From NCBI RefSeq assembly GCF_030167915.1, contig NZ_JARGNB010000008.1:124001-188000 (forward strand): 64,000 nucleotides of DNA, read 5' to 3'. The position numbers were made by a program, and so were the translations under genes. Below the pieces are notes generated by a model that saw nothing but the letters and a program-made list of their open reading frames with translations, had not been told where the DNA came from and ran no database searches. The DNA comes from Aquabacterium humicola (GTDB lineage: Bacteria > Pseudomonadota > Gammaproteobacteria > Burkholderiales > Burkholderiaceae_C). Below, piece by piece: positions 11,263 to 32,380 of this stretch. Position 1 is the stretch's first letter. Each line of letters starts with the position of its first letter.

Positions 11263-11265
11263 CGC

Positions 11266-12264: not shown

Positions 12265-12361
12265 GGCGGGATTGGACACGCAATTGTCGATCTCGCCAAC
12301 AGCCGATCCGGCCCGGCGGGCGAACAATGCGGTCCGTCGCCTGCCGCTGGAGCCCTTCTTC

Positions 12362-12835: not shown

Positions 12836-12929
12836 AAACGCTGCCGGGCGCCGGGTCAAACCGCCTCGGCCGCGGGCGGGGGCGGGTGGCGGCCGGATAC
12901 TTGCCGATCCTCCTTGACCGCCGCACCGC

Positions 12930-13514
12930 ATGGCCCTCGACCTGCTGCACTACCTGCGCATCCAGGCGCACGCCAACCGCCTCGCGAACCACCGGCAGCT
13001 GACCGCGATGGCGCCGCTGACGCGCGACGAGCTGCATGCGCCGCGCACCAGCTTCTTCCCCAGCCTGATCGAGACGCTGAACCACATCCTGATGGTCGAC
13101 GTCTACTACATCGCCGCGCTGCATGGCGAGGCCGACATGGTCGCGCAGGCCGACGCGGTGCCCCGGCACGAGACGCTGGCGACGCTGGCCCCCGCGCAGG
13201 CCGCGGCCGATGCGCGGCTGATCGGCTTCTGCGACCGGCTCGATGCCGCCGGCCTCGACGCCGAAGTCCGCATGCAGCGCCGCGACCATGTGCAGCGCGA
13301 CCGCGCCGGCCATGTGCTGGCGCACCTGCTGAACCACCAGGTGCACCACCGCGGCCAGGTGCACGCGATGCTCGCCGGCACGCGCATCGCGCCGCCGCAG
13401 CTCGACGAGTTCATGATGCCGAGCGAAGCGCACCTGCGGCGGCCCGACATGGCCGCGCTCGGGTGGCTGGAGCGGGACGTCTACGGCGAGCTGCTGCCAC
13501 CGTCGCCCGCGTGA
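12930..13514 (+). CDS. DinB family protein (putative metal-dependent)
   Basis: A four-helix bundle protein of 194 residues. The metal-binding histidine pattern of the DinB/YfiT group is visible: His in ETLNHILMVD near residue 51, and a pair in LLNHQVHHRGQ near residue 136. Family members are thiol transferases or have no known function. Despite the name, the Bacillus gene's DNA-damage induction does not imply SOS control here, and no LexA box was seen. It lies 62 bases before the reductase gene. The function is unassigned. Confidence 0.86.
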   Translation: MALDLLHYLRIQAHANRLANHRQLTAMAPLTRDELHAPRTSFFPSLIETLNHILMVDVYYIAALHGEADMVAQADAVPRHETLATLAPAQAAADARLIGFCDRLDAAGLDAEVRMQRRDHVQRDRAGHVLAHLLNHQVHHRGQVHAMLAGTRIAPPQLDEFMMPSEAHLRRPDMAALGWLERDVYGELLPPSPA

Positions 13515-13576
13515 CAAGCCGGCAAGGGCGCGCCGCCTAGCATCCCGGCTCGACTTCGATCCTGCAGGAGACCCGC

Positions 13577-14623
13577 ATGTCCGCCACCCTCGCTTCGCTC
13601 GTGAACCACCAGGTTCGCCTCGCTGCCCGCCCCACGGCCAAGACCGGCCCCGAGCACTGGCAGTTCACCGAGGAGGCCGTGACCGAGCCGGCCGACGGCG
13701 GCGTGCTGGTCAAGACGCTGGCGCTGTCGCTCGACCCGGCGATGCGCGGCTGGCTGAACGAGGGCAAGAGCTACATCCCGCCGGTGGGCATCGGCGAGGT
13801 GATGCGCGCCGGCGGCATCGGCCGCGTGATCGCATCGAAGCACCCCGGCTTCGCGGTCGGCGACATCGTCACCGGCGGCCCCGGCGTGCAGGAATACGCC
13901 AGCTACACGCCCGAGCAGGTCAAGCGCTCGGGCCTGGCGAAGATCGACCTGCGCCTGGGCTCGGTCACCCAATGGCTCAACGTGCTCGGCATGCCCGGCA
14001 TGACCGCCTACTTCGGTCTGCTCGAGGTGGGCGAGCCGAAGCCGGGCGACACCGTCGTCGTCTCGGGCGCGGCGGGCGCGGTCGGCCAGACCGTCGGCCA
14101 GCTCGCGAAGCTGAAGGGCTGCCGCGCGGTGGGCATCGCCGGCGGGCCGGCGAAGTGCGAATGGGTGGTCAAGGAGCTCGGCTTCGATGCCTGCATCGAC
14201 TACAAGGCCGGCCCGGTGAAGGACGGCCTGAAGGAGCACTGCCCGAAGGGCATCGACGTCTACTTCGACAACGTCGGCGGCGACATCCTCGACGCCGCGC
14301 TGGCGCGGCTGAACCGCCATGCGCGCATCGTGATCTGCGGCGCGATCAGCCAGTACAACAACGAAGGCGGCGTGATGCAGGGGCCGAAGAACTACCTGTC
14401 GCTGCTGGTCAACCGCGCGCGCATGCAGGGCATGGTGGTGTTCGACTACGCCGACCGCTTTGGGCTGGCGATCGCCGAGATGGCCGGGTACCTCAAGGAC
14501 GGCCGCATGAAGAGCAAGGAAGACGTCGTCGAGGGCGGCGTGAAGGTCTTCCCCGAGACCTTGAACAAGCTCTTCAGCGGCGAGAACTTCGGCAAGCTGG
14601 TGCTGAAGGTCGCCGACGAGTGA
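13577..14623 (+). CDS. NADP-dependent oxidoreductase, zinc-independent MDR (curcumin/prostaglandin reductase type)
   Basis: A 348-residue medium-chain reductase that reduces alpha,beta-unsaturated ketones with NADPH. The N-terminal domain has the LDPAMRGWL segment of the leukotriene B4 dehydrogenase/CurA branch and lacks the cysteine ligands of zinc alcohol dehydrogenases. The Rossmann motif SGAAGAVG lies near residues 166-173, and YFDNVGG is at about 228. CAGGAGACCCGC before the ATG is a strong ribosome site. It is convergent with the DUF72 gene, 19 bases apart. The natural substrate is unknown; quinone or enal detoxification is typical. Confidence 0.92.
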   Translation: MSATLASLVNHQVRLAARPTAKTGPEHWQFTEEAVTEPADGGVLVKTLALSLDPAMRGWLNEGKSYIPPVGIGEVMRAGGIGRVIASKHPGFAVGDIVTGGPGVQEYASYTPEQVKRSGLAKIDLRLGSVTQWLNVLGMPGMTAYFGLLEVGEPKPGDTVVVSGAAGAVGQTVGQLAKLKGCRAVGIAGGPAKCEWVVKELGFDACIDYKAGPVKDGLKEHCPKGIDVYFDNVGGDILDAALARLNRHARIVICGAISQYNNEGGVMQGPKNYLSLLVNRARMQGMVVFDYADRFGLAIAEMAGYLKDGRMKSKEDVVEGGVKVFPETLNKLFSGENFGKLVLKVADE

Positions 14624-14642
14624 GCGGCCGCCCGCGCCGTCC

Positions 14643-15395
14643 CTAACCCGGATTCGGCGCGGCCTGTGCCATCAGCGTCATCAGCGCCTGCGCGTAGCCG
14701 GGCGCGGTCGGCTCGTGCATGAAGTAGGCGTACGACTCGCCCCAGCCGGTGGCCGCGATGCGCTCGGCCCAGGCCGCGAGCTCGGCGTCGCCGTAGTGCT
14801 CCAGCCGCAGCCGCAGGTAGCCGAAATCGGCGGTGCGCTCGAGCGGCGGCGGGGCGTTGTCCTCCCTCTCGGACAGCACCAGCGCCGCACCGGCAGCGTT
14901 CAGCGCGGCGTACACCGCGTCGTCGAACCAGCTCGGCTCGCGGAACTCGAAGGCCGCGCGGTGGCCTTCGGGCAGCAGCGCGAGGAAGTCGGTCAACCGC
15001 GGCAAGTCGCGCTTGAGGTTCGGCGGCAGCTGGAACAGCACCGGCCCGCGACGCTCACCCAGCGACTGCAGGTTGCGGTACAGGTAGTCGACCGACTCGG
15101 CGACCTGCTCGGCCTTCAGCCGCCCGTCGTGCGTGATGCGGCGCGACGCCTTGACCGCGAAGCGGAAGTGCGGCGGCACCACCTCGGTCCAGTGCTCGAG
15201 CATCTCGCGCTTGGGCATGCGGTAGAAGGTGTTGTTGATCTCCACCGTCGGCAGCCGCTCGGCGTAGAAGCCGAGCATCGCATCGGCCGCCAGCTTCTCG
15301 GGGTAGAAGCTGCCGCACCATTCCTTGTACGAGAAGCCGCTGGCACCGGCCAGCAGGCGCGGCGCGGCGGGCGGCGTGGGGACGGATGAGCTCAT
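14643..15395 (-). CDS. DUF72 domain-containing protein (YecE-like)
   Basis: A 250-residue TIM-barrel protein of the widespread DUF72 family. The start GASGFSYKEWCGSFYP, the TVEINNTFYRMP strand and the segment EFREPSWF are family signatures; biochemical activity is not established. The ATG at 15395 is chosen because upstream in-frame codons only add low-complexity Ala/Arg sequence and run through the porin terminator. It is convergent with the reductase gene. Confidence 0.9.
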   Translation of the reverse strand: MSSSVPTPPAAPRLLAGASGFSYKEWCGSFYPEKLAADAMLGFYAERLPTVEINNTFYRMPKREMLEHWTEVVPPHFRFAVKASRRITHDGRLKAEQVAESVDYLYRNLQSLGERRGPVLFQLPPNLKRDLPRLTDFLALLPEGHRAAFEFREPSWFDDAVYAALNAAGAALVLSEREDNAPPPLERTADFGYLRLRLEHYGDAELAAWAERIAATGWGESYAYFMHEPTAPGYAQALMTLMAQAAPNPG

Positions 15396-19029: not shown

Positions 19030-20013
19030 TCACCAGCGCAGCGAGGCGGTGTGCACCGGCGCGTCCCACAGCCGCAGCAGCTCGTCGTCGAGCGCGGTGA
19101 CGGTCAGCGACGCGCCGGCCATCTCGAGCGAGGTGGTGTGGTTGCCGACCAGCCAGCGCTTGACGACAAAGCCGAGCTCGCGCAGCCGCAGCGTCGCGAT
19201 GCGGTTCAGCAGGTACAGCTCGATCAGCGGCGTGCCGCCCAGGCCGTTGACGTGCAGCAGCAGCTCGCGGCCGCGCTGCAGCGCCAGGTCCTTCAGGATC
19301 GGCTCCAGCAGCATCGTGACGATGGTGTCGGCCGATTCGATCGTGCGGCGCTGGCGGCCGGGCTCGCCGTGGATGCCGACGCCGAGCTCCATCTCCGACG
19401 GCCCGATCTCGAAGGTGGGGGCGGCGGCCTCGGGCACGGTGCAGCTGGTCAGCGCCACGCCCATCGACGCGGTGCAGCTGTTGACGCGCGTGCCGAGCGC
19501 CTTGCACTCGAAGAGATCGGCGCCGGATTCGGCCGCCGCGCCGATCATCTTCTCGACCACCAGCGTGCCCGCGACCCCGCGCCGGCCGGTGCTGCGCGGC
19601 GAGCGGTCGACCGCGACGTCGTCGTCGATCAGCAGCGTCGCGCAGTCCATGTCGAGCATGTCGGCCGCGACCTGGAAGCTGGCGCAGTCGCCGGCGTAGT
19701 TCTTGACCAGCAGCAGCACGCCCTGGCCGCATTCGACGCGGCGAGCGGCCGCGACGATCTGGTCCGGTGCCGGCGCGGTGAAGACTTCGCCCGGACAGGC
19801 CGCGTCGAGCATGCCGGGGCCGACGTAGCCCGAGTGCAGCGGCTCGTGGCCGGAGCCGCCGCCGGAAACCAGCGCGACGCGGCCCTGCTTCGGCGTGCGG
19901 CGGCAGACGAACAGCGGCGATTCGTTCAGCGCCAGCAGGTCCTCGTGCGCCATCACCAGGCCGGCGAGGCTGTCGGGCACCAGGTCCTCGGGCGAGTTGA
20001 CGAACTTCTTCAT
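19030..20013 (-). CDS. dhaK: dihydroxyacetone kinase subunit DhaK, first paralogue
   Basis: Substrate-binding subunit of a dihydroxyacetone-type kinase. At 327 residues it is the length of the stand-alone DhaK domain. The key residues keep E. coli numbering: His56 in GSGHEPLH, Asp109 in KNYAGD, and the substrate-linking His at 215 in GIHGEPG. It ends WDAPVHTASLRW exactly like the second copy at 28013, so the two are related by duplication or exchange. No DhaL accompanies it; it lies 62 bases downstream of the LacI-type regulator, probably in one unit with it. It may share the DhaL of the rightward operon or act on a different ketose. Confidence 0.92.
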   Translation of the reverse strand: MKKFVNSPEDLVPDSLAGLVMAHEDLLALNESPLFVCRRTPKQGRVALVSGGGSGHEPLHSGYVGPGMLDAACPGEVFTAPAPDQIVAAARRVECGQGVLLLVKNYAGDCASFQVAADMLDMDCATLLIDDDVAVDRSPRSTGRRGVAGTLVVEKMIGAAAESGADLFECKALGTRVNSCTASMGVALTSCTVPEAAAPTFEIGPSEMELGVGIHGEPGRQRRTIESADTIVTMLLEPILKDLALQRGRELLLHVNGLGGTPLIELYLLNRIATLRLRELGFVVKRWLVGNHTTSLEMAGASLTVTALDDELLRLWDAPVHTASLRW

Positions 20014-20075: not shown

Positions 20076-21113
20076 TCACGCGAGATTTTCCGCGGTGAGG
20101 ATCTCGACGCGCGGGTTGTTGATCGCCAGCGCGCCGCGCACGCCGTCGCACAGCGCGCGCAGCACGCGCGCGGCCGCGGTCACCGCGTACTGCACGTCCT
20201 GGTGCAGCAGGTAGCTCACCGCGCCGGACAGCAGCATCGAGCGGTGCACCTCGAGCAGGTCGTGGGCGATGAACACCAGGTCGTCGTGGCCGTAGCCGTG
20301 CTCGGCGAGCGCGCGCGCGACGCCGAAGCTGCAGGGGCCCACGTTGTACAGCGCGCGCAGGCGCCCGCCGGTGGCCGCCGGCGCGAGCACGACCCGGGCG
20401 TACTCGTAGGCTTCGTCCTCCGACTCGGGCAGCTCGAACAGCCGCAGCGCCTGGGCCTGCGGGAAACGTTCCTCGAGCACCTGCTGGAAGCCGATGCGGC
20501 GGTCGATCTCGGCCGCGTAGCGCGTGACCGGCGACAGCAGCGCGCAAGGCGCCGGCTCTTGCCGCCCGAGCGAACGGCCGACCAGCAGCCCGGCGGTGCG
20601 CCCGGCGGCGCGGTTGTCGGCGCCGATGGCGGTCTCGCGCAGCGAGCCCGGCACGTCGGAGAACAGCGTCACCACGTGCACTCCCGCGCGCACCAGCTCG
20701 TTGATCGCCAGCTTCACCGGCGGCACGTCGGGCGCCAGCAGCGCCACGCCGTCGAGGTCCGACAGCTTGGCCAGCTCGGCGGCGAAGGCCACGCCGTCGG
20801 CCGCCGGCAGCCGGTGCGTCACCTCGGTGATGTGCTGGTGGCGGAACTCGCCGGCGGCCTGCGCGACGACACGGTCGACGAGGTCGAAGAAGCCCAGCCG
20901 CGCGGCCGGCAGCACGAAGGCGAAGCGGTAGTTCGAGGTCGAGCGCGGCCGTCCGCGCATCGGCGTGCCGCCACCGAGCGAGGCGATCGCCTCGCGCACC
21001 TTGCGCACGGTGACCGGGTTGACGCCGGGCCGGTTGTTCAGCACCCGATCGACCGTGGCGGTGCTGACGCCCGCTGTCTCGGCGATCTTGATGATGGTGA
21101 CCGGATTCGTCAT
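20076..21113 (-). CDS. LacI-family transcriptional regulator
   Basis: Repressor-type regulator of 345 residues. The N-terminal helix-turn-helix IIKIAETAGVSTATVDRVLNN (residues 6-26) has the usual hinge helix after it. A periplasmic-binding-protein-like ligand domain follows from ~residue 60, which in this subfamily binds sugars or polyols. It lies between the first dhaK and the divergent ABC operon, so control of both is the natural inference. Effector unknown. Start ATG at 21113; the 388-base region upstream holds candidate operators. Confidence 0.93.
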   Translation of the reverse strand: MTNPVTIIKIAETAGVSTATVDRVLNNRPGVNPVTVRKVREAIASLGGGTPMRGRPRSTSNYRFAFVLPAARLGFFDLVDRVVAQAAGEFRHQHITEVTHRLPAADGVAFAAELAKLSDLDGVALLAPDVPPVKLAINELVRAGVHVVTLFSDVPGSLRETAIGADNRAAGRTAGLLVGRSLGRQEPAPCALLSPVTRYAAEIDRRIGFQQVLEERFPQAQALRLFELPESEDEAYEYARVVLAPAATGGRLRALYNVGPCSFGVARALAEHGYGHDDLVFIAHDLLEVHRSMLLSGAVSYLLHQDVQYAVTAAARVLRALCDGVRGALAINNPRVEILTAENLA

Positions 21114-21500: not shown

Positions 21501-22832
21501 ATGAGCTTCAACAAGAGCCTCGCCATCACCGCGAGTGCGTTTGCCGCCGCCGCGCTGATGAGCAGCGCCGCGCAGGCACAGCAGAAACAGCTCACGCTGT
21601 GCTGGGCGGCCTGGGACCCGGCCAATGCACTGGTCGAGCTGTCGAAGGACTTCACCGCGAAGACCGGCATCGCGATGAAGTACGAGTTCGTGCCCTGGCC
21701 GAACTTCGCGCAGCGCATGCTCAACGAGCTGAACTCCAAGGGCAAGCTGTGCGACCTGCTGATCGGCGACAGCCAGTGGATCGGCTCGGCCGCCACCGAG
21801 GGCCACTACGTCAAGCTCAACGAGTTCTTCGACAAGAACGGCATCAAGATGTCGGACTTCGCGCCGGCCACCGTCGAGGGCTACTCGACCTGGCCCAAGG
21901 GCACGAAGAACTACTACGCGCTGCCGGCGATGGGCGACGCGGTGGCCTTCACCTACCGCAAGGACTGGTTCGGCCGCCCCGAGCTGAAGGCCGAGTTCAA
22001 GCAGAAGTACGGCCGTGACCTGGCCCCGCCCAAGACCTGGGACGAGTTCAAGGAAGTCGGTCAGTTCTTCCAGAACCGCACCATCGACGGCAAGAAGGTC
22101 TACGGCGCGGCGCTCTACACCGAGCGCGGCTCCGAAGGCATCACGATGGGCGTGACGAACACCATGTACGCCTACGGCATGGACTACATGAACCCGAAGA
22201 AGCCGTATGACCTGAAAGGCTTCATCAACGGCCCCGGCGCCGTCAAGGGTCTGCAGGTCTACAAGGAGCTGTACGACACCGTCACGCCTCCGGGGCACTC
22301 GAACGCCTACATGGGCGAAAACCTCGACTCGTACCGCTCGGGTCAGGTCGCGATGCAGATGAACTTCATCGCGTTCTTCCCCGGCATCTCGAAGGACCCG
22401 CAAGTCGGCGGCGAGAAGACGGGCTTCTTCGCGATTCCCAAGGGCACCGCGAGCCACGCGCAGCTCGGCGGCCAGGGCATCTCGGTCGTCAAGTACTCCG
22501 ACAAGCAGGACATGGCGCTCGAGTACATGAAGTGGTTCGCGCAGCCGGCCATCCAGGAGGGGTGGTGGAAGGGCGGCGGCTTCACTTGCCTGAACTCGAT
22601 CCTGAACCAGCCGGGCTTTGCGAAGAGCACGTCGTACGCCCAGGTGTTCCAGGACTCGATGAAGATGGTGAAGGACTTCCCGGCTGATCCGTCGTACGCG
22701 CAGCTGCTGCTGGCGATGCAGAACCGCGTGCACGACTACGTCGTCGCCGGCAAGGGCACGCCGCAGGCCGCTCTCGACGCGCTCGAGAAGGACTGGGTCC
22801 AGATCTTCAAGGAAGACGGCAAGATCAAGTAA
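21501..22832 (+). CDS. ABC transporter solute-binding protein (family 1, carbohydrate/polyol type)
   Basis: Periplasmic binding protein of 443 residues that delivers a solute to the permeases encoded next. It has a Sec signal peptide with cleavage after AQA (residue 26). The mature protein has the extended two-domain fold of family 1 binding proteins, with GDSQWIGS near residue 93 and YYALPAMGD near 138. AGGAGACCGAGG precedes the ATG. It is the first gene of an operon that also encodes DhaL and DhaK, so a small polyol or ketose ligand is inferred; the sequence alone does not give the ligand. Confidence 0.92.
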   Translation: MSFNKSLAITASAFAAAALMSSAAQAQQKQLTLCWAAWDPANALVELSKDFTAKTGIAMKYEFVPWPNFAQRMLNELNSKGKLCDLLIGDSQWIGSAATEGHYVKLNEFFDKNGIKMSDFAPATVEGYSTWPKGTKNYYALPAMGDAVAFTYRKDWFGRPELKAEFKQKYGRDLAPPKTWDEFKEVGQFFQNRTIDGKKVYGAALYTERGSEGITMGVTNTMYAYGMDYMNPKKPYDLKGFINGPGAVKGLQVYKELYDTVTPPGHSNAYMGENLDSYRSGQVAMQMNFIAFFPGISKDPQVGGEKTGFFAIPKGTASHAQLGGQGISVVKYSDKQDMALEYMKWFAQPAIQEGWWKGGGFTCLNSILNQPGFAKSTSYAQVFQDSMKMVKDFPADPSYAQLLLAMQNRVHDYVVAGKGTPQAALDALEKDWVQIFKEDGKIK

Positions 22833-22895
22833 CAGACCCACGGGTGACCGTGCCTGGCGCCAAGCCGGCATGGTCACCCCAGCTTGAAAGCTGTT

Positions 22896-23837
22896 ATGAG
22901 CTACGTTCACACCGGGCCTGCAACCTTGGTCGCCAAGCAATCCCGACTCTTCTCGGCGAACGGCCTTTCCGACCGTGCCATGGCCTGGCTCTTCATCGGC
23001 CCGACCATCCTGCTGCTGCTGGCCTTCAACATATTCCCGTTGCTGTGGACGATCTACCTCTCGTTCACCGGCTACCGCGCCAACCGGCCCAACGCCGACA
23101 CCGTCTGGCTGGGCATCGCCAACTACCAGCGCGTCCTCAACGATGAAGCCATCTGGGAGAACATGCGCGCCACCGCGCACTTCCTGGTTTGGTCGATCCT
23201 GCTGCAGCTGCTGCTCGGCTTCGCCCTCGCGCTGCTGCTCAACCGCAAGTTCCGTTCGCACAGCTTCTGGAGCACCGCGATCCTGCTGCCGATGATGCTC
23301 GCGCCGGCGGTGGTCGGTACCTTCTGGAAGTTCTTCTTCGAGCCGCAATACGGCATCTTCAACTACATCGTCAACTTCTTCGGCGGGCCCGGCAACTTCA
23401 CGATGCTGGGTGACACGCAGCTCTCGCCCTGGGCCATCGTGCTGGTGGACACCTGGATGTGGACGCCCTACGTGATGCTGCTGCTGCTGGCCGGCCTGCG
23501 CTCGATCCCGTCCTATCTCTACGAGGCCGCTGAAATCGACCGCGCCTCGGCATGGACCACCTTCTGGCGCATCACGCTGCCGATGGTGATGCCCTTCATC
23601 ATCCTGGCGCTGCTGTTTCGCGTTATCGAGAACTTCAAGATGTTCGACCTGGTGGACCAGCTGACCAACGGCGGCCCCGGCTCGGTGACCGAACTGGCCT
23701 CGATCAAGCTCAAGCGCGAGGCCTTCGAGAAGTGGCGCACCGGCTACGCCTCGGCGCTCGCCATCATCATGTTCGTGTCGATCTACGGTCTGTCGATGGT
23801 CGCGGTGAACTTCCTGAACAAGGTGAAGCAGCGATGA
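22896..23837 (+). CDS. ABC transporter permease 1 (MalF type)
   Basis: Inner-membrane permease of 313 residues with six predicted membrane segments. The EAA loop that contacts the ATPase reads YEAAEIDRASAWTTF, near residues 208-222. ATG at 22896 is preferred over a TTG four codons earlier. Its stop overlaps the start of permease 2 (ATGA), indicating translational coupling. Confidence 0.93.
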   Translation: MSYVHTGPATLVAKQSRLFSANGLSDRAMAWLFIGPTILLLLAFNIFPLLWTIYLSFTGYRANRPNADTVWLGIANYQRVLNDEAIWENMRATAHFLVWSILLQLLLGFALALLLNRKFRSHSFWSTAILLPMMLAPAVVGTFWKFFFEPQYGIFNYIVNFFGGPGNFTMLGDTQLSPWAIVLVDTWMWTPYVMLLLLAGLRSIPSYLYEAAEIDRASAWTTFWRITLPMVMPFIILALLFRVIENFKMFDLVDQLTNGGPGSVTELASIKLKREAFEKWRTGYASALAIIMFVSIYGLSMVAVNFLNKVKQR

Positions 23838-24781
23838 GAGCCGTCCCTCACAGCCCGCTCGAGCCGAGCGCGCGTTCCAAGTGGTTCGCCGGCATCGTCG
23901 TCATCACCTACGCGGTGATCTCGCTGATCCCGCTGGTGTGGATCTTCATGACCGGCTTTCGCACCCCGAACGACGCGATTGCCTACCCGCCGAAGATCGT
24001 CGCCGAGCAGTCGCTGATCGGCTACGTCAACCTGTTCACGACACGTTCGCGGATCGGGGCCGAGGAGATGGCGGCGCTGCCGCCGCCCGCGACCTGGTAC
24101 GAGAAGCTCGTGCGCGAGCAGCAGATGATCCTCGCCGGCCCGTCGCGCTTCATCGACCGCTACAGCAACTCGCTGCTGATCGGCTTCGGCTCGACGCTGC
24201 TGTCGGTGGTGCTGGGCACGCTCGCGGCCTATGCCTTCTCGCGCTTTCGGGTGCCGGCCAAGGACGACTTGCTGTTCTTCATCCTCTCGACCCGGATGAT
24301 GCCGCCGATCGCGATCGCCATTCCGGTCTACCTGATGTTCCGCAGCGTCGGCTTGAGCGACACGCACCTCGGCCTGATCCTGATGTACACGGTGGTGAAT
24401 CTCTCGCTCTCGGTGTGGCTGCTGCAGGGCTTCATGGACGAGATCCCGCGCGAGTACGAAGAGGCCGCGATGGTCGACGGCTACACCCGCTGGCAGGCCT
24501 TCCTGAAGGTGGTGCTGCCGCAGGCGGCGACCGGCATCGCGACGACCGCCATCTTCTGCCTGATCTTCGCGTGGAACGAGTACGCGTTCGCCCTCCTGCT
24601 GACGAGCGGCACCGCGCAGACCTCGCCCCCGTTCATCCCGACCATCATCGGCGAGGGCGGCCTCGACTGGCCCGCGATGGCCGCCGGCACGACGCTGTTC
24701 CTGCTGCCGGTGCTGCTGTTCACCGTGCTGCTGCGCAAGCACCTGCTGCGCGGCGTGACCTTCGGAGCGATCCGCAAATGA
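23834..24781 (+). CDS. ABC transporter permease 2 (MalG type)
   Basis: Inner-membrane permease of 315 residues. The EAA loop reads YEEAAMVDGYTRWQAF, about residues 206-221. A ~55-residue hydrophilic stretch (around residues 60-115) between the first and second membrane segments contains the acidic/proline-rich EEMAALPPPATW and is longer than in typical MalG proteins. The gene starts inside the stop of permease 1 and ends inside the start of the next small gene (ATGA overlaps at both ends), so the membrane components are tightly coupled. Confidence 0.93.
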   Translation: MRAVPHSPLEPSARSKWFAGIVVITYAVISLIPLVWIFMTGFRTPNDAIAYPPKIVAEQSLIGYVNLFTTRSRIGAEEMAALPPPATWYEKLVREQQMILAGPSRFIDRYSNSLLIGFGSTLLSVVLGTLAAYAFSRFRVPAKDDLLFFILSTRMMPPIAIAIPVYLMFRSVGLSDTHLGLILMYTVVNLSLSVWLLQGFMDEIPREYEEAAMVDGYTRWQAFLKVVLPQAATGIATTAIFCLIFAWNEYAFALLLTSGTAQTSPPFIPTIIGEGGLDWPAMAAGTTLFLLPVLLFTVLLRKHLLRGVTFGAIRK

Positions 24782-24951
24782 GACGCTACTTCCGCCGCGC
24801 GCCGTGGGAACACGGCACCACCGGGCTGATCGGCCTGGGCCTCGCGATGTTGATGCAGCCATGGTCGATCGACGTCTACAGCTACGGCTTCACCGTGCTG
24901 CTGGCCGGCGTGATCGGCTACACGATCGCCGGCAAGCTGCCCCAGGCCTGA
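24778..24951 (+). CDS. 57-residue membrane protein of the ABC operon (GlpU/DUF2160-like)
   Basis: A very small integral membrane protein with a basic N terminus (MRRYFRRAPWEH) and two hydrophobic segments at ~15-28 and ~36-52. It overlaps the permease 2 stop by four bases and precedes the first ATPase by 11 bases, so it is almost certainly translated. Its place between permeases and ATPase genes recalls the small DUF2160 protein (GlpU) of glycerol-type ABC operons in rhizobia; that family link is from memory and is tentative. It may stabilise or tune the permease pair. Confidence 0.75.
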   Translation: MRRYFRRAPWEHGTTGLIGLGLAMLMQPWSIDVYSYGFTVLLAGVIGYTIAGKLPQA

Positions 24952-24962
24952 AGAGACTCACC

Positions 24963-26069
24963 ATGGCTGAAATCCGAATCCAGAACCTGCAGAAGCGCTT
25001 CGCCGACTTCACCGCGGTGAAGAACTCCTCGCTGGTGCTCGAAGACGGCAAGTTCGTCGTGCTGCTGGGCCCGTCGGGCTGCGGCAAGACGACAACCTTG
25101 CGCATGATCGCCGGGCTCGAGTTCCCGACCGACGGGACGATCACCTTGGACGGCAGCGACGTCACCTACCTGCGGCCGCGCGAGCGCGACATCGCGATGG
25201 TGTTCCAGCTCTTCGCGCTGTACCCGCACATGGGCGTGCGCGACAACCTGGAGTTCCCGCTGCGCAACGAGGGCGTGCCGCGCGCCGAGATCGATCGCCG
25301 CATCAACGAGGTCGCGAGCATCCTGCGCATCGAGCACCTGCTCGGCTCGCGCGTCGGCGGCCTGTCCGGCGGCGATCGCCAGCGCGTCGCGCTGGGCCGC
25401 GCGATCGTGCGCCAGCCCAAGGCCTTCCTGATGGACGAGCCGCTGGGCACGCTGGACGCCGAGTTCCGCGAGCTGATGTGCGTCGAGCTGCGCAAGCTGC
25501 ACGAGCGACTGCGCACCACCACCGTCTTCGTCACGCACGACCAGAACGAGGCGATGGCGCTGGCCGATCACATCGTCGTGATGAACAACGGCGAGATCCT
25601 GCAGGCCGACGACCCGCACGGCATCTACAACTTCCCGTCCTGCGTCTTCGTCGCACGCTTCATCGGCCGCCCGCCGATGAACCTGCTGCAGGTGCGCGGC
25701 GGCGTCAGCGGCGGCGACGACCGTGTGCAGGTCGACGGCCAGCACATTGCCGTGCCGCCGCTGCAGGGCGACGCGCCGGGCGCGCTGCTCGGCGTGCGTC
25801 CCGAGCATGTGCGCCTGCAGCCGGCGGGCGAGGGGCTCGGCGGCCGCGTCGAGCATGTCGAGTACTTCGGCTCGCACTGGATCGCCGGGATCCGCACCGA
25901 TGCCGGCCCGCTGAAGGTGCTGGCCGACAAGGGCGTGCGACCCGCCGAAGGCGACGCCGTCGGCCTGGCCTTCGACACCCCGCGGCTGGTGATGTTCGAC
26001 ACCGCCACCGAGCGCCTCCTGCCCAGCGCCACCACCTCCGCCCACCGACCGAGCATGCGCCATGGCTAG
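24963..26069 (+). CDS. ABC transporter ATPase 1
   Basis: ATP-binding subunit of 368 residues with an N-terminal ATPase (~1-235) and a C-terminal regulatory OB-type domain. Walker A is GPSGCGKT at 36-43, the Q-loop lies in AMVFQLFAL, the Walker B region is FLMDEPLG and the H-loop is VTHD. The signature reads LSGGD (134-138) rather than LSGGQ. Its stop overlaps the start of ATPase 2 by eight bases. Presence of two distinct ATPases suggests a heterodimer, as in the glycerol transporter GlpST type. Confidence 0.94.
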   Translation: MAEIRIQNLQKRFADFTAVKNSSLVLEDGKFVVLLGPSGCGKTTTLRMIAGLEFPTDGTITLDGSDVTYLRPRERDIAMVFQLFALYPHMGVRDNLEFPLRNEGVPRAEIDRRINEVASILRIEHLLGSRVGGLSGGDRQRVALGRAIVRQPKAFLMDEPLGTLDAEFRELMCVELRKLHERLRTTTVFVTHDQNEAMALADHIVVMNNGEILQADDPHGIYNFPSCVFVARFIGRPPMNLLQVRGGVSGGDDRVQVDGQHIAVPPLQGDAPGALLGVRPEHVRLQPAGEGLGGRVEHVEYFGSHWIAGIRTDAGPLKVLADKGVRPAEGDAVGLAFDTPRLVMFDTATERLLPSATTSAHRPSMRHG

Positions 26070-27081
26070 CATCTGCCTGCACGACATCACCAAGCGTTTC
26101 GGCGACATCACCGCCGTGCACGAGCTGCGGCTGGACATCGCCGACGGCGAGTTCTTCGTGCTGCTGGGCCCCAGCGGCGCCGGCAAGACAACGACGCTGC
26201 GGCTGATCGCCGGCCTCGAGACGCCCGACGCCGGCCGGGTGCTGATGAACGGCACCGACATGAGCGCCGCCCCGCCGGCGCAGCGCGACTGCGCGTTCGT
26301 CTTCCAGCAGTACTCGCTGTACCCGCACCTGAGCGTGTACGACAACATGGCCTTCCCGCTGCGGGCGCCGATGCGCCGCATGGACGAGGCCGACATCCGC
26401 CGCCGCGTCGAGCGCGTGGCCGCGACGCTGCACATCGAGAGCAAGCTGCAGCGCAAGGCCACCGCGCTGTCCGGCGGCGAGATGCAGCGCGTGGCGATCG
26501 GCCGTGCGCTGGTGCGCGAGCCGAGCGTCTACCTGATGGACGAGCCGCTGTCGTCGCTCGACGCGGGCCTGCGCGAGGAGCTGCGCGTGGAGCTCAAGCG
26601 CCTGCAGCGCGCCAGCGGTGCCACGGTGGTCTACGTCACGCACGACCAGGTCGAGGCGACGACGCTGGCCGACCGCATCGCGATCCTCGAGCACGGGCGC
26701 GTGGTGCAGGTCGGCACGCCGCTCGAGGTCTACGACGAGCCGCGCTCGCTGGAGGTCGCGCAGCGCCTGGGCACACCGGCGGTCAACGTGCTGCCGGCGG
26801 CGTGGTTCGCCGGCCGTGTCGACCCGCAGGCGCGCCATGTCGCGATCCGTCCCGAGGACGTGATGCTGGCGCCGGACGGCGATCCGGCGCACGCCTTCGC
26901 GGTCATCGAATGTTCGCTGGTCAAGCACCTCGTGGTCGCCGAGCGCTCCGGCGTCGAGGTGCGTGCCCGCACGATGCTCGACCAGGGCCTGGCACCCGGC
27001 GCGCGCGTGCAGCTGACGTTCCCGCCCGAGCGTTGCCTGTTCTTCGACGCCGCCGGGCAGCGCCTGGCCGACGCGCGCTGA
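26062..27081 (+). CDS. ABC transporter ATPase 2
   Basis: Second ATP-binding subunit, 339 residues, same domain order as ATPase 1. Walker A is GPSGAGKT at 36-43, the signature is LSGGE (136-140), Walker B lies in VYLMDEPL and the H-loop in VTHDQ. It differs from ATPase 1 over much of its length, so it is an old paralogue rather than a recent copy. Translation is coupled to ATPase 1 by overlap. It probably pairs with ATPase 1 on the two permeases. Confidence 0.94.
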   Translation: MASICLHDITKRFGDITAVHELRLDIADGEFFVLLGPSGAGKTTTLRLIAGLETPDAGRVLMNGTDMSAAPPAQRDCAFVFQQYSLYPHLSVYDNMAFPLRAPMRRMDEADIRRRVERVAATLHIESKLQRKATALSGGEMQRVAIGRALVREPSVYLMDEPLSSLDAGLREELRVELKRLQRASGATVVYVTHDQVEATTLADRIAILEHGRVVQVGTPLEVYDEPRSLEVAQRLGTPAVNVLPAAWFAGRVDPQARHVAIRPEDVMLAPDGDPAHAFAVIECSLVKHLVVAERSGVEVRARTMLDQGLAPGARVQLTFPPERCLFFDAAGQRLADAR

Positions 27082-27114
27082 GGGCCCCTGCCGTCACCTG
27101 CCGAGGAGACCGCC

Positions 27115-27339
27115 ATGAACGAATCCCGCCTGCTGAACGACGCCCCGCGGCGCTTCCAGCTGTGCTTCCGCTCGCTGTTCCAGCCCGGCCGCGCCTACGT
27201 CTTCCCCTGCGATGCCGCAGGACAGGTCGACCTGGATGCGCTCAGCGAACGTGCCCGCAACAACTACCTCTACGCCCGCGCAGTCCGGGGCCGCGAGTTC
27301 ACGCAGCCGGACGTGCAGGCGGTCCGCGCCGCGGCCTGA
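27115..27339 (+). CDS. unrecognised 74-residue protein
   Basis: No family is recognised. It begins with GAGGAGACCGCC before its ATG, a strong ribosome site, and sits in the same direction between ATPase 2 (33 bases before) and DhaL (23 bases after), so it is probably real. It has no signal peptide or membrane segment. The middle is rich in Phe and Cys (RRFQLCFRSLFQPGRAYVF) and the C-terminal half reads like an amphipathic helix (DALSERARNNYLYARAVRGREF). It could be a small cytoplasmic partner of the kinase or transporter. Confidence 0.7.
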   Translation: MNESRLLNDAPRRFQLCFRSLFQPGRAYVFPCDAAGQVDLDALSERARNNYLYARAVRGREFTQPDVQAVRAAA

Positions 27340-27351
27340 CCCCACCAAGAC

Positions 27352-27357
27352 AAGGAG
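27352..27357 (+). promoter_or_regulatory. Shine-Dalgarno that selects a TTG start for dhaL
   Basis: AAGGAG lies 5 bases before TTG at 27363, optimal spacing. The first in-frame ATG is at 27375, 17 bases away, which is too far. The TTG start also keeps the usual length of the DhaL N terminus. Confidence 0.7.
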
Positions 27358-27362
27358 CCACC

Positions 27363-28016
27363 TTGAACACCCCGATGATCATCGATGCGCTCGCCAGCGT
27401 GCAGCGCGCCATCCTGGCCAACGAAGCGCAGATCGAGTCGCTCGATCGCGCGATCGGCGACGGCGACCACTTCATCAACGTACGCCGCGGCTGCGAGGTG
27501 CTGGTCGTGATGGCGCCCGAGCTGCGCGACATGCCGCCGGGGCTGGCGCTGCACAAGATCGGCATGAAGCTGCTCGGCACCATCGGCGGCGCCTCGGGCC
27601 CGCTGATCTCGAGCTTCTTCATGGCCATGGGCAAGACGCTCGAAGGCCTGGACGAGCCCGACCGGCGCCAGTTCGCCGCCGCCTTCGCCGCCGGCGTCGA
27701 GGCGATCAAGACCCGCGGCAAGGCCGACGTCGGCGAGAAGACCATGCTCGACGTGCTGATCCCGGCGTCGCGCCTGCTGCTGAAGCTGGCCGACGAGGAC
27801 GTGCCGCTGCTGCAGCTGTGCGCGCAGATGGTCGAGGAAGCCGAAAGCAACATGCTCGCCACGCGCGACATGATCGCCAGCAAGGGCCGCGCGTCCTTCC
27901 TCGGCGAACGCGCGCTCGGCCACATCGACCCCGGCTGCAAGACCTGCCAGGTGGCGATCGCCGCGGTCTGCGAGTCGGTGCTCGAACAGGTCGCCCCGTC
28001 GTCGGAGGCCGCATGA
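27363..28016 (+). CDS. dhaL: dihydroxyacetone kinase subunit DhaL (nucleotide-binding)
   Basis: Nucleotide-binding subunit of 217 residues. The metal-binding aspartates are Asp28, Asp33 and Asp35 in LDRAIGDGDH; GGASGP near 76, the EKTMLD turn near 122 and KGRASFLGERALGHIDPG near 172 complete the fold. In PTS-type systems DhaL keeps a bound ADP that DhaM re-phosphorylates. No DhaM gene is in the window, so either DhaM or another donor is encoded elsewhere, or this DhaL exchanges ATP as the fused kinases do. CKTC after the DPG motif is unusual. Its TGA overlaps the dhaK start. Confidence 0.93.
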   Translation: MNTPMIIDALASVQRAILANEAQIESLDRAIGDGDHFINVRRGCEVLVVMAPELRDMPPGLALHKIGMKLLGTIGGASGPLISSFFMAMGKTLEGLDEPDRRQFAAAFAAGVEAIKTRGKADVGEKTMLDVLIPASRLLLKLADEDVPLLQLCAQMVEEAESNMLATRDMIASKGRASFLGERALGHIDPGCKTCQVAIAAVCESVLEQVAPSSEAA

Positions 28017-28996
28017 AGAAGTTCATCAACGACCTCCAGTCGGTCATGCGCGAGTCGATCGGCGGCATGGTCGCGGCGCATCCGCAGCTGCTGCGCGCCG
28101 AGTTCGAACCGACCTTCATCGCCCGCGCCGAGCGCGCGACGAACAAGGTGGCGCTGATCTCGGGCGGCGGCTCGGGGCACGAGCCGCTGCATGCCGGTTA
28201 TGTCGGCCGCGGCATGCTCGACGCGGCCTGCGCCGGCCAGGTCTTCACCTCGCCGACGCCGGACCAGATGCTGGCCGCCGCGGCCGCGGTGCACTCCGGC
28301 CGCGGCGTGCTGCTGATCGTCAAGAACTACTCGGGTGACCTGATGAACTTCCAGATTGCCAGCGAGATGATGGATCTCGAGAACGCGACGGTGCTGGTCA
28401 ACGACGACGTCGCGGTCGAGAACTCCACCCACACCACCGGCCGCCGCGGCGTCGCCGGCACGGTGATCGTCGAGAAGATGGTCGGCGCCGCCGCCGAGGC
28501 CGGCGCGAACCTGCTCGAATGCAAGGCCATCGGCGACCGCGTGAACGCCGCGACGGCGTCGATGGGCGTCGCGTTCACCAGTTGCACGGTGCCGGCCGCC
28601 GGCCGCACCACCTTCGACATCGGCGAGGACGAGATGGAGGTCGGCGTCGGCATCCACGGCGAGCCCGGGCGCCGGCGCGAGAAGGTCAAGCCGGCCGGGC
28701 TGATCGTCGACGAGCTGCTGCAATCGATCCTCGCCGACCTGAAGCCGGCCCCGGGCCGCGAGCTGCTGCTGCATGTCAACGGCTTCGGCGGCACGCCGCT
28801 GATGGAGCTGTACCTGCTGTTCCACAACGCGGCCGAACGGCTGGGCGCCCAGGGGCTGAAGGTCGTGCGTTCGCTGGTCGGCAACCACACCACGGCGCTG
28901 GAGATGGCCGGCGCGTCGCTCACCGTCACGCTGCTCGACGACGAGCTGAAGTCGCTGTGGGATGCGCCGGTGCACACGGCGTCCCTGCGCTGGTGA
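28013..28996 (+). CDS. dhaK: dihydroxyacetone kinase subunit DhaK, second paralogue
   Basis: Substrate-binding subunit of 327 residues, the same length as the first DhaK. His56 (GSGHEPLH), Asp109 (KNYSGD) and the hemiaminal-forming His215 (GIHGEPG) are all present, so it should be able to bind a short ketose or aldose. It overlaps dhaL by four bases, so the two should be made in step. It also ends in WDAPVHTASLRW. The partner for catalysis is DhaL. Product would be dihydroxyacetone phosphate, or a tetrulose phosphate if the transported solute is a C4 polyol. Confidence 0.94.
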   Translation: MKKFINDLQSVMRESIGGMVAAHPQLLRAEFEPTFIARAERATNKVALISGGGSGHEPLHAGYVGRGMLDAACAGQVFTSPTPDQMLAAAAAVHSGRGVLLIVKNYSGDLMNFQIASEMMDLENATVLVNDDVAVENSTHTTGRRGVAGTVIVEKMVGAAAEAGANLLECKAIGDRVNAATASMGVAFTSCTVPAAGRTTFDIGEDEMEVGVGIHGEPGRRREKVKPAGLIVDELLQSILADLKPAPGRELLLHVNGFGGTPLMELYLLFHNAAERLGAQGLKVVRSLVGNHTTALEMAGASLTVTLLDDELKSLWDAPVHTASLRW

Positions 28997-29003
28997 GGCC
29001 ACC

Positions 29004-30143
29004 ATGCGGCGCCGTGCCCTGGTTCTCGGCCTGCCTGGTGCAGTCGCGATGGCAGCGGCGCTGCCACGCGGCGTGCGCGCACGCAGTGCTCCAACACCGA
29101 TCCGTCTCGGCCAGTCGGCGCCGCTGACGGGCCCGCTGGCGCGCATCGGCAGCGAATGCCGCGATGCGGCGCGCGCGGTCTTCGCCGACTGCAATGCGCA
29201 AGGCGGCATCGACGGCCGCCCGATCGAGCTCGTCACGCTGGACGACGAGGACCGCGCCGAGCGCACTGCGGTCAACGTCAAGCTGCTCGCGTCGCAGCAC
29301 CAGGTGGTCGGGCTGTTCGGCTTCGTCGGCGCCGGTGCGCACCGCGCCGGCGCACGCGGCGCGGCCGACGAGGGCCTGCCCTACATCGCCGCCTTCAGCG
29401 GTTCGCAGGAGCTGCGCTCGGGGCTGCTGCCCGGGGTCTTCAACCTGCGCGCGGGCCACGTCGACGAGGTGGACTACATCGCGCGCCACACGCGGCAGGT
29501 CGGCATCCGGCGCGTCTCGCTGGTGGCCGAGTACAACTCGCAGGGCTGGGAGCTGCGCGATGCGCTGCTGGCGGCCTTCGAGTCGCGCGGCGACAGCGTC
29601 GCGTCGATCAGCAGCGTCGACCATGAAGGCAGCGCCTACAGCCTGCCGGGCGCGGTGTTCTCGGTGCTCGCCGGGCAGCCGCAGGCGATCCTGCTCGGCG
29701 CCGACCACGTGGCCAGCGCCCGCTTCGTCGATGCCGTGCGCGCTGCCGGTTTCACCGGGCTCTTCTACACGCTGTCGACGGTCGGCGGCTCGGCGCTGAT
29801 GGAGCGCCTGGGGCCGCAGGCGGCCGGCGTCTCGGTGACGCAGGTCGTGCCCTTCCCGTGGACCACCGCGTCTTCGCTGGGCCGCCACTTCCAGGGCTTC
29901 TGCCAGCGCCACCGCCTCGAGCCCTCGTTCGCCGGCATGGAGGCCTACCTCGCGGCCCAGCTGGTGATCGACGCGCTGCGCCGCGCGCGCGAGTCGACGC
30001 CGCAGTCGCTGGCCGCGGCGCTGGAAGCGCTGCCGCCGCGCGACTTCGGCGGATTCGTCGGCGCGTTCTACGCCAAGTCGCGGCGCACCGCGGCGCAGGT
30101 CGACCTGACGGTGTTCTCGCGCACCGGCAAGTTCGTGAAGTGA
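29004..30143 (+). CDS. periplasmic binding protein, branched-chain amino-acid type (Peripla_BP_6)
   Basis: A 379-residue binding protein beginning seven bases after dhaK. The N terminus MRRRALVLGLPGAVAMAAALP is a signal sequence with a double-Arg start; GQSAPLTGPLARIG opens the fold. This is a different superfamily from the operon's first binding protein and no matching LivH/LivM permeases are present. It may feed ligand information to the downstream kinase, or be an extra receptor for the transporter, but neither is shown. ATG at 29004 is chosen because it starts the signal peptide. Confidence 0.88.
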   Translation: MRRRALVLGLPGAVAMAAALPRGVRARSAPTPIRLGQSAPLTGPLARIGSECRDAARAVFADCNAQGGIDGRPIELVTLDDEDRAERTAVNVKLLASQHQVVGLFGFVGAGAHRAGARGAADEGLPYIAAFSGSQELRSGLLPGVFNLRAGHVDEVDYIARHTRQVGIRRVSLVAEYNSQGWELRDALLAAFESRGDSVASISSVDHEGSAYSLPGAVFSVLAGQPQAILLGADHVASARFVDAVRAAGFTGLFYTLSTVGGSALMERLGPQAAGVSVTQVVPFPWTTASSLGRHFQGFCQRHRLEPSFAGMEAYLAAQLVIDALRRARESTPQSLAAALEALPPRDFGGFVGAFYAKSRRTAAQVDLTVFSRTGKFVK

Positions 30144-30150
30144 GCGGCCC

Positions 30151-30963
30151 GTGGCCCGGCTCGTCATCGGCAACTGGAAGATGAACGGCACGCCGGCGCT
30201 GCTGCGCGCGTTCGCCGCCGCCGCGCTGCGCGAGCCGCCGCGCTGCGAGGCCGCGCTGTGCGTGCCGCACCCGCTGCTGGCGGCCGCGCGCACCGCCTTC
30301 GGCACGACCGCGCTGCGCTGGGGCGCGCAGGACTGCTCGGCCGAGCTCGACGGCGCGTTCACCGGCGAGGTCAGCGCCCGCCTGCTGGCCGACCTCGACA
30401 CGCGCTACGTGATCCTCGGCCATCCGGAGCGCCGGCTCGGCCATGGCGAGACCGACGGCCAGATCGCCGCGAAGGCGCAGCGCGCGCTCGCCGTCGGGCT
30501 GACGCCGGTGGTCTGCATCGGCGAGACCGCCGAGGAGCGCGACGGCGAGCAGACCAGCGCGGTGCTGCGGCGCCAGCTGCTGCAACTGGCGCGCCTGCTC
30601 GGGCGCCGGCTGGCCGCGGTGGTGCTGGCCTATGCGCCGCCGTGGGCGGCCAGCCGGCACGGCTGCGGCGACTGCGTCGCGCCCGGGCTGCTCGAGGACA
30701 CCTTCGCCGCCATCGCCGAACTGCTGGCCTTCCATGCGGGGCTGTCGGCGGCATCGGTGCGCGTGATCTACGGCGGCAGCGTCGATGCGCGCAATGCCGG
30801 CGCGCTGCTGTCGCTGCCCGGCATCGGGGGCGTGCTGGTCGGCGCGGCCTCGCTGCGCCCGGCCGACTTCATCGAGATCTGCAAGGCCGCTGCCCGCTGC
30901 GGGGACCCCCCAGTGCGGGCCGCGAGCCTGTGGCCAGTCATTGCCACGAGCGCCAGGGAGTGA
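30151..30963 (+). CDS. triosephosphate isomerase homologue lacking the catalytic glutamate
   Basis: A 270-residue TIM-barrel protein, starting GTG seven bases after the previous stop. It keeps Lys10 (GNWKMNG), His91 and Glu93 (GHPERR), the CIGE turn and the phosphate loops YGGSV and LVGAASL. The family's catalytic base, the Glu of AYEPVWAIGTG, is replaced by Ala162 in AYAPPWAAS, and the mobile loop 6 (IGTGK) is replaced by SRHGCGDC. Normal isomerase activity is therefore unlikely. The rest of the barrel is intact, so this is not a decayed gene. Possible roles: a sugar-phosphate isomerase with different chemistry, a binding protein, or a dead regulator. A housekeeping tpiA is presumably elsewhere. 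Confidence 0.88.
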   Translation: MARLVIGNWKMNGTPALLRAFAAAALREPPRCEAALCVPHPLLAAARTAFGTTALRWGAQDCSAELDGAFTGEVSARLLADLDTRYVILGHPERRLGHGETDGQIAAKAQRALAVGLTPVVCIGETAEERDGEQTSAVLRRQLLQLARLLGRRLAAVVLAYAPPWAASRHGCGDCVAPGLLEDTFAAIAELLAFHAGLSAASVRVIYGGSVDARNAGALLSLPGIGGVLVGAASLRPADFIEICKAAARCGDPPVRAASLWPVIATSARE

Positions 30964-31006: not shown

Positions 31007-32380
31007 ATGTGCATTCCGGTCAACGACGACAAGCTGCTGCGATCGCGCGTCGAGGCGCGCATCGAGGCCCCGGCACCGGACATCGGCGGGGACGCTGCGA
31101 GCGAGGGTCCGGCCCTCGGCATCGAGTTGGGCGCCGGCCCGGCCGTCGCGGCGCCGGCGTTGATGCTGGCCACCGCGCTGCGCGAGCGTGCCGCGCTGCG
31201 CCAGCGCTTGCGCGATGCCGCGCTGCTGACCGAACGGCTGGAGGACGTCGCGCGCGCCTCCGGCGACTGGATCTGGGAAACCGACGAGCGGCACCGCTAC
31301 ACCTGGGTGCACGACGCGCTGCCGCCGGCGCCCGGCGTGCGGCCGCCGCGCGTCGGCGAGCCGATCCCGGCCGGGCTGGTCGTCGACTGGCTCGGCGAGC
31401 CCGAGGCGCCGCGGCGCGACCTGCATGCGGTGCTGCAGCGCGGCGAGGCCATCGTGCGGCTGGTGACGCGCGAGCGGGCCCCCGACGGCGTGCGCTACGT
31501 CTCGCGCAGCGCGGTGCCGCTGCGGCGCGCGGACGGCTCTTTCCGGGGTTATCGCGGCTCGGCGCGCGACGTCACGCAGAGCCTGGACGCGAAGGCCCGG
31601 CTGTGGCGGCGCGACGAGCTGCTGCGCCGCGCGAAGGATGCCGCCGAGGCGCGCAGCGCTGCCAAGTCGATGCTGGTGTCCAAGGTCGGCCACGAGCTGC
31701 GCACGCCGCTGAACGCGATCGTCGGCCTGGCGCAGCTGGTGCAGGCGCGCATCGGCGAGCAGGGCGGCGATGCCGGGCGCCGCGCGGTCGACGAATGGGT
31801 CGCGCAGATCGCACGCGCCGGCTGGCACATGGTCGACGTGCTGGACCTGCTGATGGAGATCGGCCGTGCCGGCGCGGCCGGCGCCGCGCTGCAGAGCGAG
31901 CCGGTCGACGCCGCCGACGCGGTGCGCGACGCGCTGAAGGTGGTCGAAGGCGATGCGCGCGCGCGCGCGATTTCGGTGCAGCTCGATGCGCCGATGCCGG
32001 CCTGGGTGCTCGGCGACCGCCGCGCGCTGCGCCAGGTGGCGATCAACCTGCTCAGCAACGCCGTCAAGTACAACCGCGAGCAGGGCGCGGTGCGGCTGCG
32101 CGTGGCCACCGGCGAGCAGGTGTGCATCGAGGTGCAGGACACCGGGCGCGGCATGACCGAACCGCAGCTCGCGCGCCTGTTCCGCCCCTTCGACCGGCTG
32201 GGCGTCGACGACGGCGACGTCAAGGGGCACGGCCTCGGCCTCTCGATCTGCCACGAGCTGGTCTCGGCGATGGGCGGCCGCATCGAGGTGCACAGCGCCG
32301 TCGACCGCGGTACCCGCTTCGCGGTGATGCTGCCGGCCCTGCCGCGCGGCCACGGCGCGCTGCGCCTGGCGACCGCCTGA
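31007..32380 (+). CDS. soluble sensor histidine kinase with PAS domain
   Basis: A 457-residue kinase without membrane segments. A ~90-residue N-terminal region leads by a coiled coil to a PAS domain (~85-200, with GDWIWETD), then HisKA with phospho-acceptor His229 in GHELRTP and an HATPase domain (N-box NLLSNAVKYN, G1 DTGRGM, G2 GHGLGL). It starts 43 bases after the isomerase homologue and is the last gene of the rightward run. No response regulator is adjacent in the same direction; the convergent hybrid kinase carries a receiver domain. A role as sensor for the upstream uptake genes is possible. Confidence 0.9.
   Translation: MCIPVNDDKLLRSRVEARIEAPAPDIGGDAASEGPALGIELGAGPAVAAPALMLATALRERAALRQRLRDAALLTERLEDVARASGDWIWETDERHRYTWVHDALPPAPGVRPPRVGEPIPAGLVVDWLGEPEAPRRDLHAVLQRGEAIVRLVTRERAPDGVRYVSRSAVPLRRADGSFRGYRGSARDVTQSLDAKARLWRRDELLRRAKDAAEARSAAKSMLVSKVGHELRTPLNAIVGLAQLVQARIGEQGGDAGRRAVDEWVAQIARAGWHMVDVLDLLMEIGRAGAAGAALQSEPVDAADAVRDALKVVEGDARARAISVQLDAPMPAWVLGDRRALRQVAINLLSNAVKYNREQGAVRLRVATGEQVCIEVQDTGRGMTEPQLARLFRPFDRLGVDDGDVKGHGLGLSICHELVSAMGGRIEVHSAVDRGTRFAVMLPALPRGHGALRLATA

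Follow-up and report, generated by a model that had tools for sequence, protein, structure and literature searches.

Natural loss of the catalytic glutamate in a triosephosphate isomerase paralog from a dihydroxyacetone kinase operon of Aquabacterium humicola

Background

Triosephosphate isomerase (TIM) is the textbook example of a near-perfect enzyme. Among its laboratory variants, as given in the part of PMC12874384 used here, E165D alone lowers kcat/Km 420-fold, S96P costs 27-fold and acts as a second-site suppressor of the E165D lesion, and deletion of the tip of loop 6 costs about 8 kcal/mol; the terms E165A and E167A do not occur in that part of the article. The residue names Ser96, Glu165, Ile170, Ala176, and Gly232 follow the numbering of the same excerpt. 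Another member of the family, EryH/TpiA2 of Brucella, uses tetrulose phosphate as its substrate and works with EryI/RpiB, and erythrulose can be phosphorylated by dihydroxyacetone kinase (PMC5992420, in the portion used here). Among the literature matches listed, no natural TIM without the catalytic Glu was described in the titles or the openings of the abstracts.

We analyzed a TIM-family paralog encoded beside the dihydroxyacetone kinase genes DhaL and DhaK (together, DhaKL) in Aquabacterium humicola. The window is the whole stretch of DNA that was analyzed, 64,000 nucleotides in length.

Results

A TIM-family protein with an altered active site

The reading frame of the TIM paralog (Table 1) is open, with no frameshift and no stop, and its start codon lies 7 bases past the stop of the upstream gene. 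A preliminary description made from the letters of this DNA had the coordinates, frame, and residues of the gene right, with Lys10, His91, Glu93, and Ala162 where it had put them, and had correctly assigned the open gene to a DhaL-DhaK operon. The genome (7.39 Mb in 44 contigs, with a stated completeness of 100% and contamination of 0.28%) has a second TIM, which is canonical and lies on another contig.

The protein belongs to the TIM family, matching PF00121 over its whole length (220.8 bits against the Pfam cut-off of 20.1, profile positions 2-245 of 245) and solved TIM structures with E values reaching 3e-50. It missed the NCBIfam cut-off of the TIGR00419 equivalog (122.9 vs. 130.6), which was passed by all 4 of its orthologs (154-167) and by the one canonical TIM tried (212.5).

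The motifs of the paralog read VARLVIGNWKMNG, GHPERR, AYAPPWAASRHGCGDC, and YGGS. Its general-base Glu (Glu165) is replaced by Ala162, and further substitutions, which the preliminary description had passed over, were identified at S92P (Ser96; GHS to GHP in the family motif GHSERR), V164P (family Val or Leu to Pro, PVW or PLW becoming PPW), I167A (Ile170), A176V, and G232A in loop 8 (VGGASL to VGAASL). Because of further changes such as this last one, and contrary to the earlier claim, not every phosphate-binding loop is intact. Loop 6 carries a 9-base (3-residue) in-frame insertion together with substitutions, going from WAI, a 3-residue gap, and GSGN/D to WAASRHGCGD, and the stretch that is AIGTG at normal length reads AASRHGCG. 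The claim that this loop had been replaced by SRHGCGDC thus holds for the change itself and goes too far as to its extent, the G-x-G being still present as GCG. The spacing from YEP/YAP to YGGS is 46 residues, compared with 40-43 in the 92 other TIMs of our alignment. Asn8, Lys10, His91, Glu93, and YGGS are retained, Lys10 and His91 being the catalytic Lys and His of TIMs.

Rarity of the glutamate loss

We aligned 93 distinct TIMs, for which 23 loci with a stop in the cut stretch were skipped and 6 duplicates and 10 copies were left out. Glu was present in all 92 other TIMs, and the equivalents of Ile167, Ala176, and Gly232 were Ile, Ala, and Gly in 92/92. Counted over the TIM-bearing loci fetched, with genome repeats included and these skips not applied, 129 of 132 had Glu, and the other 3 had Ala and were all copies of the window. 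We also scanned Pseudomonadota genomes at the DNA level for the motif AYxP, a hydrophobic residue, and WAIGTG. With x = Glu, the positive control, the motif was identified in 91 of 100 genomes; with x = Ala, Val, or Gly it was found in 0 of 398, and with x from any codon whose first base is not G likewise in 0 of 398, Asp being outside the scan, which is also blind to proteins whose loop has changed too, as that of the window has. In this paralog the TIM general base has been lost naturally. The loss is real and rare, and the altered site is one sequence in one genome and one assembly.

The operon and its neighboring genes

The gene order is that of a solute-binding protein, 2 permeases, a small ORF, 2 ATPases, DhaL, DhaK, a second binding protein (SBP2), and TIM, followed by a PAS sensor kinase, with a LacI-family regulator and a second DhaK on the opposite strand upstream of the operon (Table 1). 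The cluster has one DhaL but two DhaK genes, both of which pass TIGR02363, and a further short ORF lies ahead of DhaL.

Table 1. Positions of the TIM paralog and the surrounding genes, numbered from the first letter of the window
Feature	Position	Strand	Remarks
Second DhaK	19030..20013	-	TIGR02363 above cut-off
LacI-family regulator	20076..21113	-	
SBP1, extracellular solute-binding protein	21501..22832	+	SBP_bac_1
ABC permease 1	22884..23837	+	
ABC permease 2	23834..24781	+	
Small ORF, 57 aa	24778..24951	+	No Pfam match
ABC transporter ATPase 1	24963..26069	+	Best NCBIfam matches UgpC, MalK, below cut-offs
ABC transporter ATPase 2	26062..27081	+	Best NCBIfam matches UgpC, MalK, below cut-offs
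Short ORF, about 74 codons	about 27115..27340	+	Between ATPase 2 and DhaL
DhaL	27375..28016	+	TIGR02365 above cut-off
DhaK, dihydroxyacetone kinase subunit	28013..28996	+	TIGR02363 above cut-off
SBP2, periplasmic binding protein	28962..30143	+	Peripla_BP_6; directly 5' of TIM; part analyzed 29007-30143
TIM-family paralog	30151..30963	+	GTG start, 270 aa; Ala162 at catalytic Glu
PAS/HisKA/HATPase sensor kinase	31007..32380	+	3' of TIM gene

SBP2 is a lone periplasmic binding protein of the branched-chain-amino-acid type that follows DhaK. At E 1e-80, it occurred in 9 of the 399 family genomes searched, including that of the window, and in all 8 others it adjoins DhaL-DhaK. Protein identity between the operon (21501-30963) and that of Aquabacterium terrae is uneven, at 96-98% for the binding protein and permeases, 88-89% for the ATPases, DhaL, and DhaK, 80% for SBP2, and 69% for TIM, which hints at recombination within the operon or at differing constraint.

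Orthologs and distribution of the operon TIM

Orthologs were sought by a pattern scan of GTDB species genomes with tblastn confirmation (best 80 loci), with TIM as the query against 200 family and 21 genus genomes, and with SBP2 as the query against 399 order and 399 family genomes, the genus of G096 being covered by 5 genomes. Besides the window, the SBP2 search of the 399 order genomes returned just paralogs at 34-37%. Across these searches, of which the pattern scan covers its best 80 loci, we identified 4 syntenic TIM orthologs, in A. terrae (L033 = G143), Rhizobacter MAG_54 (L034), G096, and Betaproteobacteria BP_21 (L035 = G737). With the window TIM, they form a five-member clade (FastTree support 1.0), and all five adjoin DhaL-DhaK-SBP2.

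Glu and Ile are retained in all 4 orthologs, whose loop 6 is 3 residues shorter than that of the window; L035 has Ala at Ser96. Since they sit in the same operon and keep Glu and loop 6, the loss is, as judged from these comparisons, lineage-specific. Ala and a new loop as the mark of all DhaKL-linked TIMs, a conservation that the preliminary description had proposed to look for by alignment, can be rejected, with Glu and the shorter loop in 4/4. At the DNA level, the loop differs from that of A. terrae and G096 by two in-frame insertions (3 + 6 bases) and from that of BP_21 by one of 9, and the small gaps set by the aligner against MAG_54 sum to 9 net. A compensated frameshift is an unlikely origin of the loop, since neither of the remaining frames reads as loop 6.

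No TIM was found within about 19 kb of DhaL-DhaK-SBP2 in 5 family genomes (G035, G113, G132, G164, and G198), each of which has one TIM genome-wide, and a second TIM was present in 2 of 21 genus and 3 of 200 family genomes. Given these TIM-less modules and the rarity of a second TIM, the TIM gene is optional within the module. Behind the TIM-less module of G113 (L142), ORFs were observed at about 11057-14845 on the SBP2-forward strand; by their N-terminal sequences, we take these to be like transketolase and glyceraldehyde-3-phosphate dehydrogenase.

The DhaL-DhaK-SBP2 module is known in 10 genomes, 8 of which were searched for RpiB (PF02502). It was identified in 0 of these 8, MAG_54 and G132 not being among them, and 7 of 14 controls were positive. 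A tetrulose-phosphate route is thus not supported, its partner isomerase RpiB being missing from 8/8 searched genomes.

A homolog of the sensor kinase lies near TIM in A. terrae (68% identity), MAG_54 (62%), and G096 (52%), giving 4 of 5 TIM-bearing operons with the window included (the loci of co-occurrence being the window, L033, L034, and L126), and was not found in BP_21, where TIM is present. In the TIM-less modules, it was identified in 0 of 5, save for a 26% match in one stretch. The co-occurrence is the strongest hint at a joint role of TIM and sensor kinase, a pattern seen equally in the Glu-keeping orthologs, and the 4/5 and 0/5 are not independent events because the ten operons are related.

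Constraint on the paralog

We defined a deeply conserved set of 53 columns, each at least 95% conserved across 88 other TIMs and invariant among the 4 orthologs. The window TIM keeps 49 of these and changes 4, all in the active site (E162A, I167A, A176V, and G232A). At the 109 columns identical in the 4 orthologs, its departures number 4 among 20 active-site columns and 7 among the 89 others (p=0.12 alone), the active-site set being our own choice from known family loops. Leave-one-out departures pooled over the orthologs were 2 of 82 active-site and 59 of 415 other columns, so that the ratio of active-site to other departures is 4:7 in the window vs. 2:59 in the orthologs (Fisher p=0.004), in a comparison that is uneven, with the window set against four sequences and each ortholog against three. 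Outside the active site, the same uneven comparison gave 7/89 vs. 59/415 (p=0.12), and the seven replacements of the window are mostly mild (I/L, V/I, S/T, A/T, G/A, and P/A). Constraint outside the active site appears not visibly relaxed.

For the window branch, a branch codon model refitted on both topologies estimated an omega of 0.184 or 0.172, depending on the topology, vs. 0.066 or 0.073 elsewhere. An omega of 1 on the window branch was rejected (p=7e-5), and the rise over the background is modest (p=0.009 or 0.03 by topology); the A. terrae branch, at 0.20, is similar. Of the marks of a pseudogene (frameshift, stop, and an omega near 1), the paralog has none. Its third-position GC of 0.95 is like that of the other operon genes, and its first- and second-position GC (0.77 and 0.57) are the highest among nine genes compared. 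The earlier statement that the gene had no other sign of decay is therefore sound as to frame, third-position GC, and an omega well below 1, and fails at the further active-site positions lost.

An acceleration specific to TIM was considered and rejected. Replacements unique to the window vs. unique to A. terrae were 37:10 with MAG_54 as the outgroup; BP_21 in that role gave 31:11 (p=0.003) and G096 gave 25:17 (p=0.28). For the eight other operon genes taken together, the ratio with MAG_54 was 114:56, which does not differ significantly from that of TIM (p=0.15). The test is not clean, because the TIM tree groups A. terrae with MAG_54, not with the window (0.869).

Predicted structure

AlphaFold models of the window TIM (pLDDT 86.3) and of its A. 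terrae ortholog (pLDDT 88.0) are both TIM barrels, and the 50 PDB matches listed by Foldseek for the former are TIMs with TM scores of 0.85-0.91 by target length. Over loop 6, the block means of pLDDT are 74 and 65 in the window TIM, with values below 50 at 170-173, and 81 and 87 in the A. terrae ortholog.

Discussion

On balance, we favor the reading that the TIM paralog is a redundant duplicate in the DhaKL/ABC-uptake operon that would have lost isomerase catalysis in this lineage. As the tetrulose route lacks RpiB, the ancestral job of the operon TIM would most simply have been to turn the DHAP produced by DhaKL into glyceraldehyde 3-phosphate. As this step is presumably covered by the canonical housekeeping TIM, the catalytic constraint would have been lifted, and the general base, the residues that position and clamp it (Ser96, Ile170, and the loop-6 hinge), and one Gly of a phosphate loop could then be lost. 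With the carboxylate gone, proton removal from DHAP should fail and isomerase activity should be lost, as the preliminary description had anticipated; the protein may still fold, and perhaps also bind phosphorylated trioses, without any turnover being expected. With an open frame and constraint still visible over the remainder of the protein, the loss is probably recent on an evolutionary time scale.

The same constraint outside the active site would also be expected of a selected pseudoenzyme and counts against decay, and the branch average of omega spans time before the loss, so the codon model would give a recent loss and a kept pseudoenzyme the same appearance. Such a protein would bind DHAP or a similar sugar phosphate, or pair with the canonical TIM, and regulate the operon, for example with the sensor kinase, and we regard it as possible but unlikely. 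It is consistent with the retained Asn8, Lys10, His91, Glu93, YGGS, and deeply conserved columns, with an omega well below 1, with the well-modeled barrel, and with a kinase homolog 3' of TIM in most TIM-bearing operons; since S96P suppresses E165D (PMC12874384, in the part used here), S92P could be compensatory and not decay, which counts against a redundant copy. However, the altered site was found in one sequence, too few to show conservation of the altered state, and stands beside 4 orthologs whose Glu and loop are normal. The changes also reach the lid and one phosphate-binding Gly, both of which grip the dianion, and the lid is modeled at low confidence. The kinase, too, goes equally with the Glu-keeping orthologs, BP_21 has TIM without it, and the ten operons are related. 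More doubtful still is the more specific proposal of a natural TIM pseudoenzyme that keeps the barrel and part of the pocket, with its base discarded and its lid rebuilt, and that may act on behalf of the DhaKL operon and the accompanying sensor kinase, either as a sensor that binds DHAP or as a partner subunit.

A new catalyst, in which His169, Asp174, or a Cys of the inserted loop would transfer the proton, perhaps on tetrulose phosphate, seems improbable. The new loop SRHGCGDC is rich in possible acid-base groups, the tetrulose activity of EryH/TpiA2 and the phosphorylation of erythrulose offer a precedent (PMC5992420, in the portion used here), and S96P suppresses the misplaced base of E165D TIM (excerpt of PMC12874384), but the loop is poorly ordered in the AlphaFold model, RpiB was found in none of the 8 module genomes searched (MAG_54 and G132 not among them) with half of the controls positive, and Glu and loop are unaltered in the operon orthologs. 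Nor is there support for the different sugar-phosphate chemistry proposed earlier as something characteristic of the operon, because the 4 syntenic orthologs are normal in Glu and loop 6 and RpiB is missing in the 8 genomes searched. The binding role that the preliminary description had put forward as an alternative is possible. That the paralog is a working but slow isomerase is hardly credible: Lys10, His91, and Glu93 are kept, but E165D alone costs 420-fold (PMC12874384, in part), and the paralog lacks the carboxylate altogether, besides its changes in loop 6 and the clamp. An error of sequencing or assembly is just as improbable, for although the site comes from one assembly, it would take six residue changes and a 9-base in-frame insertion without a frameshift, in a genome of 44 contigs whose stated completeness is 100% and contamination 0.28%; the preliminary description had rightly held that no single base error would suffice.

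A natural protein in which base, clamp, and lid have been lost jointly makes, with its apparently intact orthologs from the same operon, a clean pair in which one can ask how an enzyme turns into a non-enzyme and what purpose the leftover pocket serves. If the paralog is just a redundant duplicate, the homology-based name triose-phosphate isomerase would mislead.

Comparison with known systems

The window TIM resembles TpiA (PF00121, TIGR00419) in its fold and length, in the Asn, Lys, His, and Glu of loops 1 and 4, and in the YGGS of loop 7, and is unlike it in the replacement of Glu by Ala, Ser96 by Pro, Ile170 by Ala, and Gly232 by Ala, in the 3 residues added to loop 6, and in falling below the TIGR00419 cut-off. 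Its orthologs in DhaKL operons (L033, L034, G096, and L035) share the operon order up to TIM, 53-69% identity, and a single clade, whereas all of them keep Glu, Ile, and the shorter loop. EryH/TpiA2, compared here by description and not by sequence, is likewise a second TIM-family copy with a link to dihydroxyacetone kinase (PMC5992420, in the portion used here), but differs in its partner EryI/RpiB, which is missing in 8 of 8 searched genomes. The laboratory TIM variants (E165D, S96P, and the loop-6 deletion; PMC12874384, in the part used here) share some positions with the changes in the window TIM, which, unlike them, is natural and carries several changes together.
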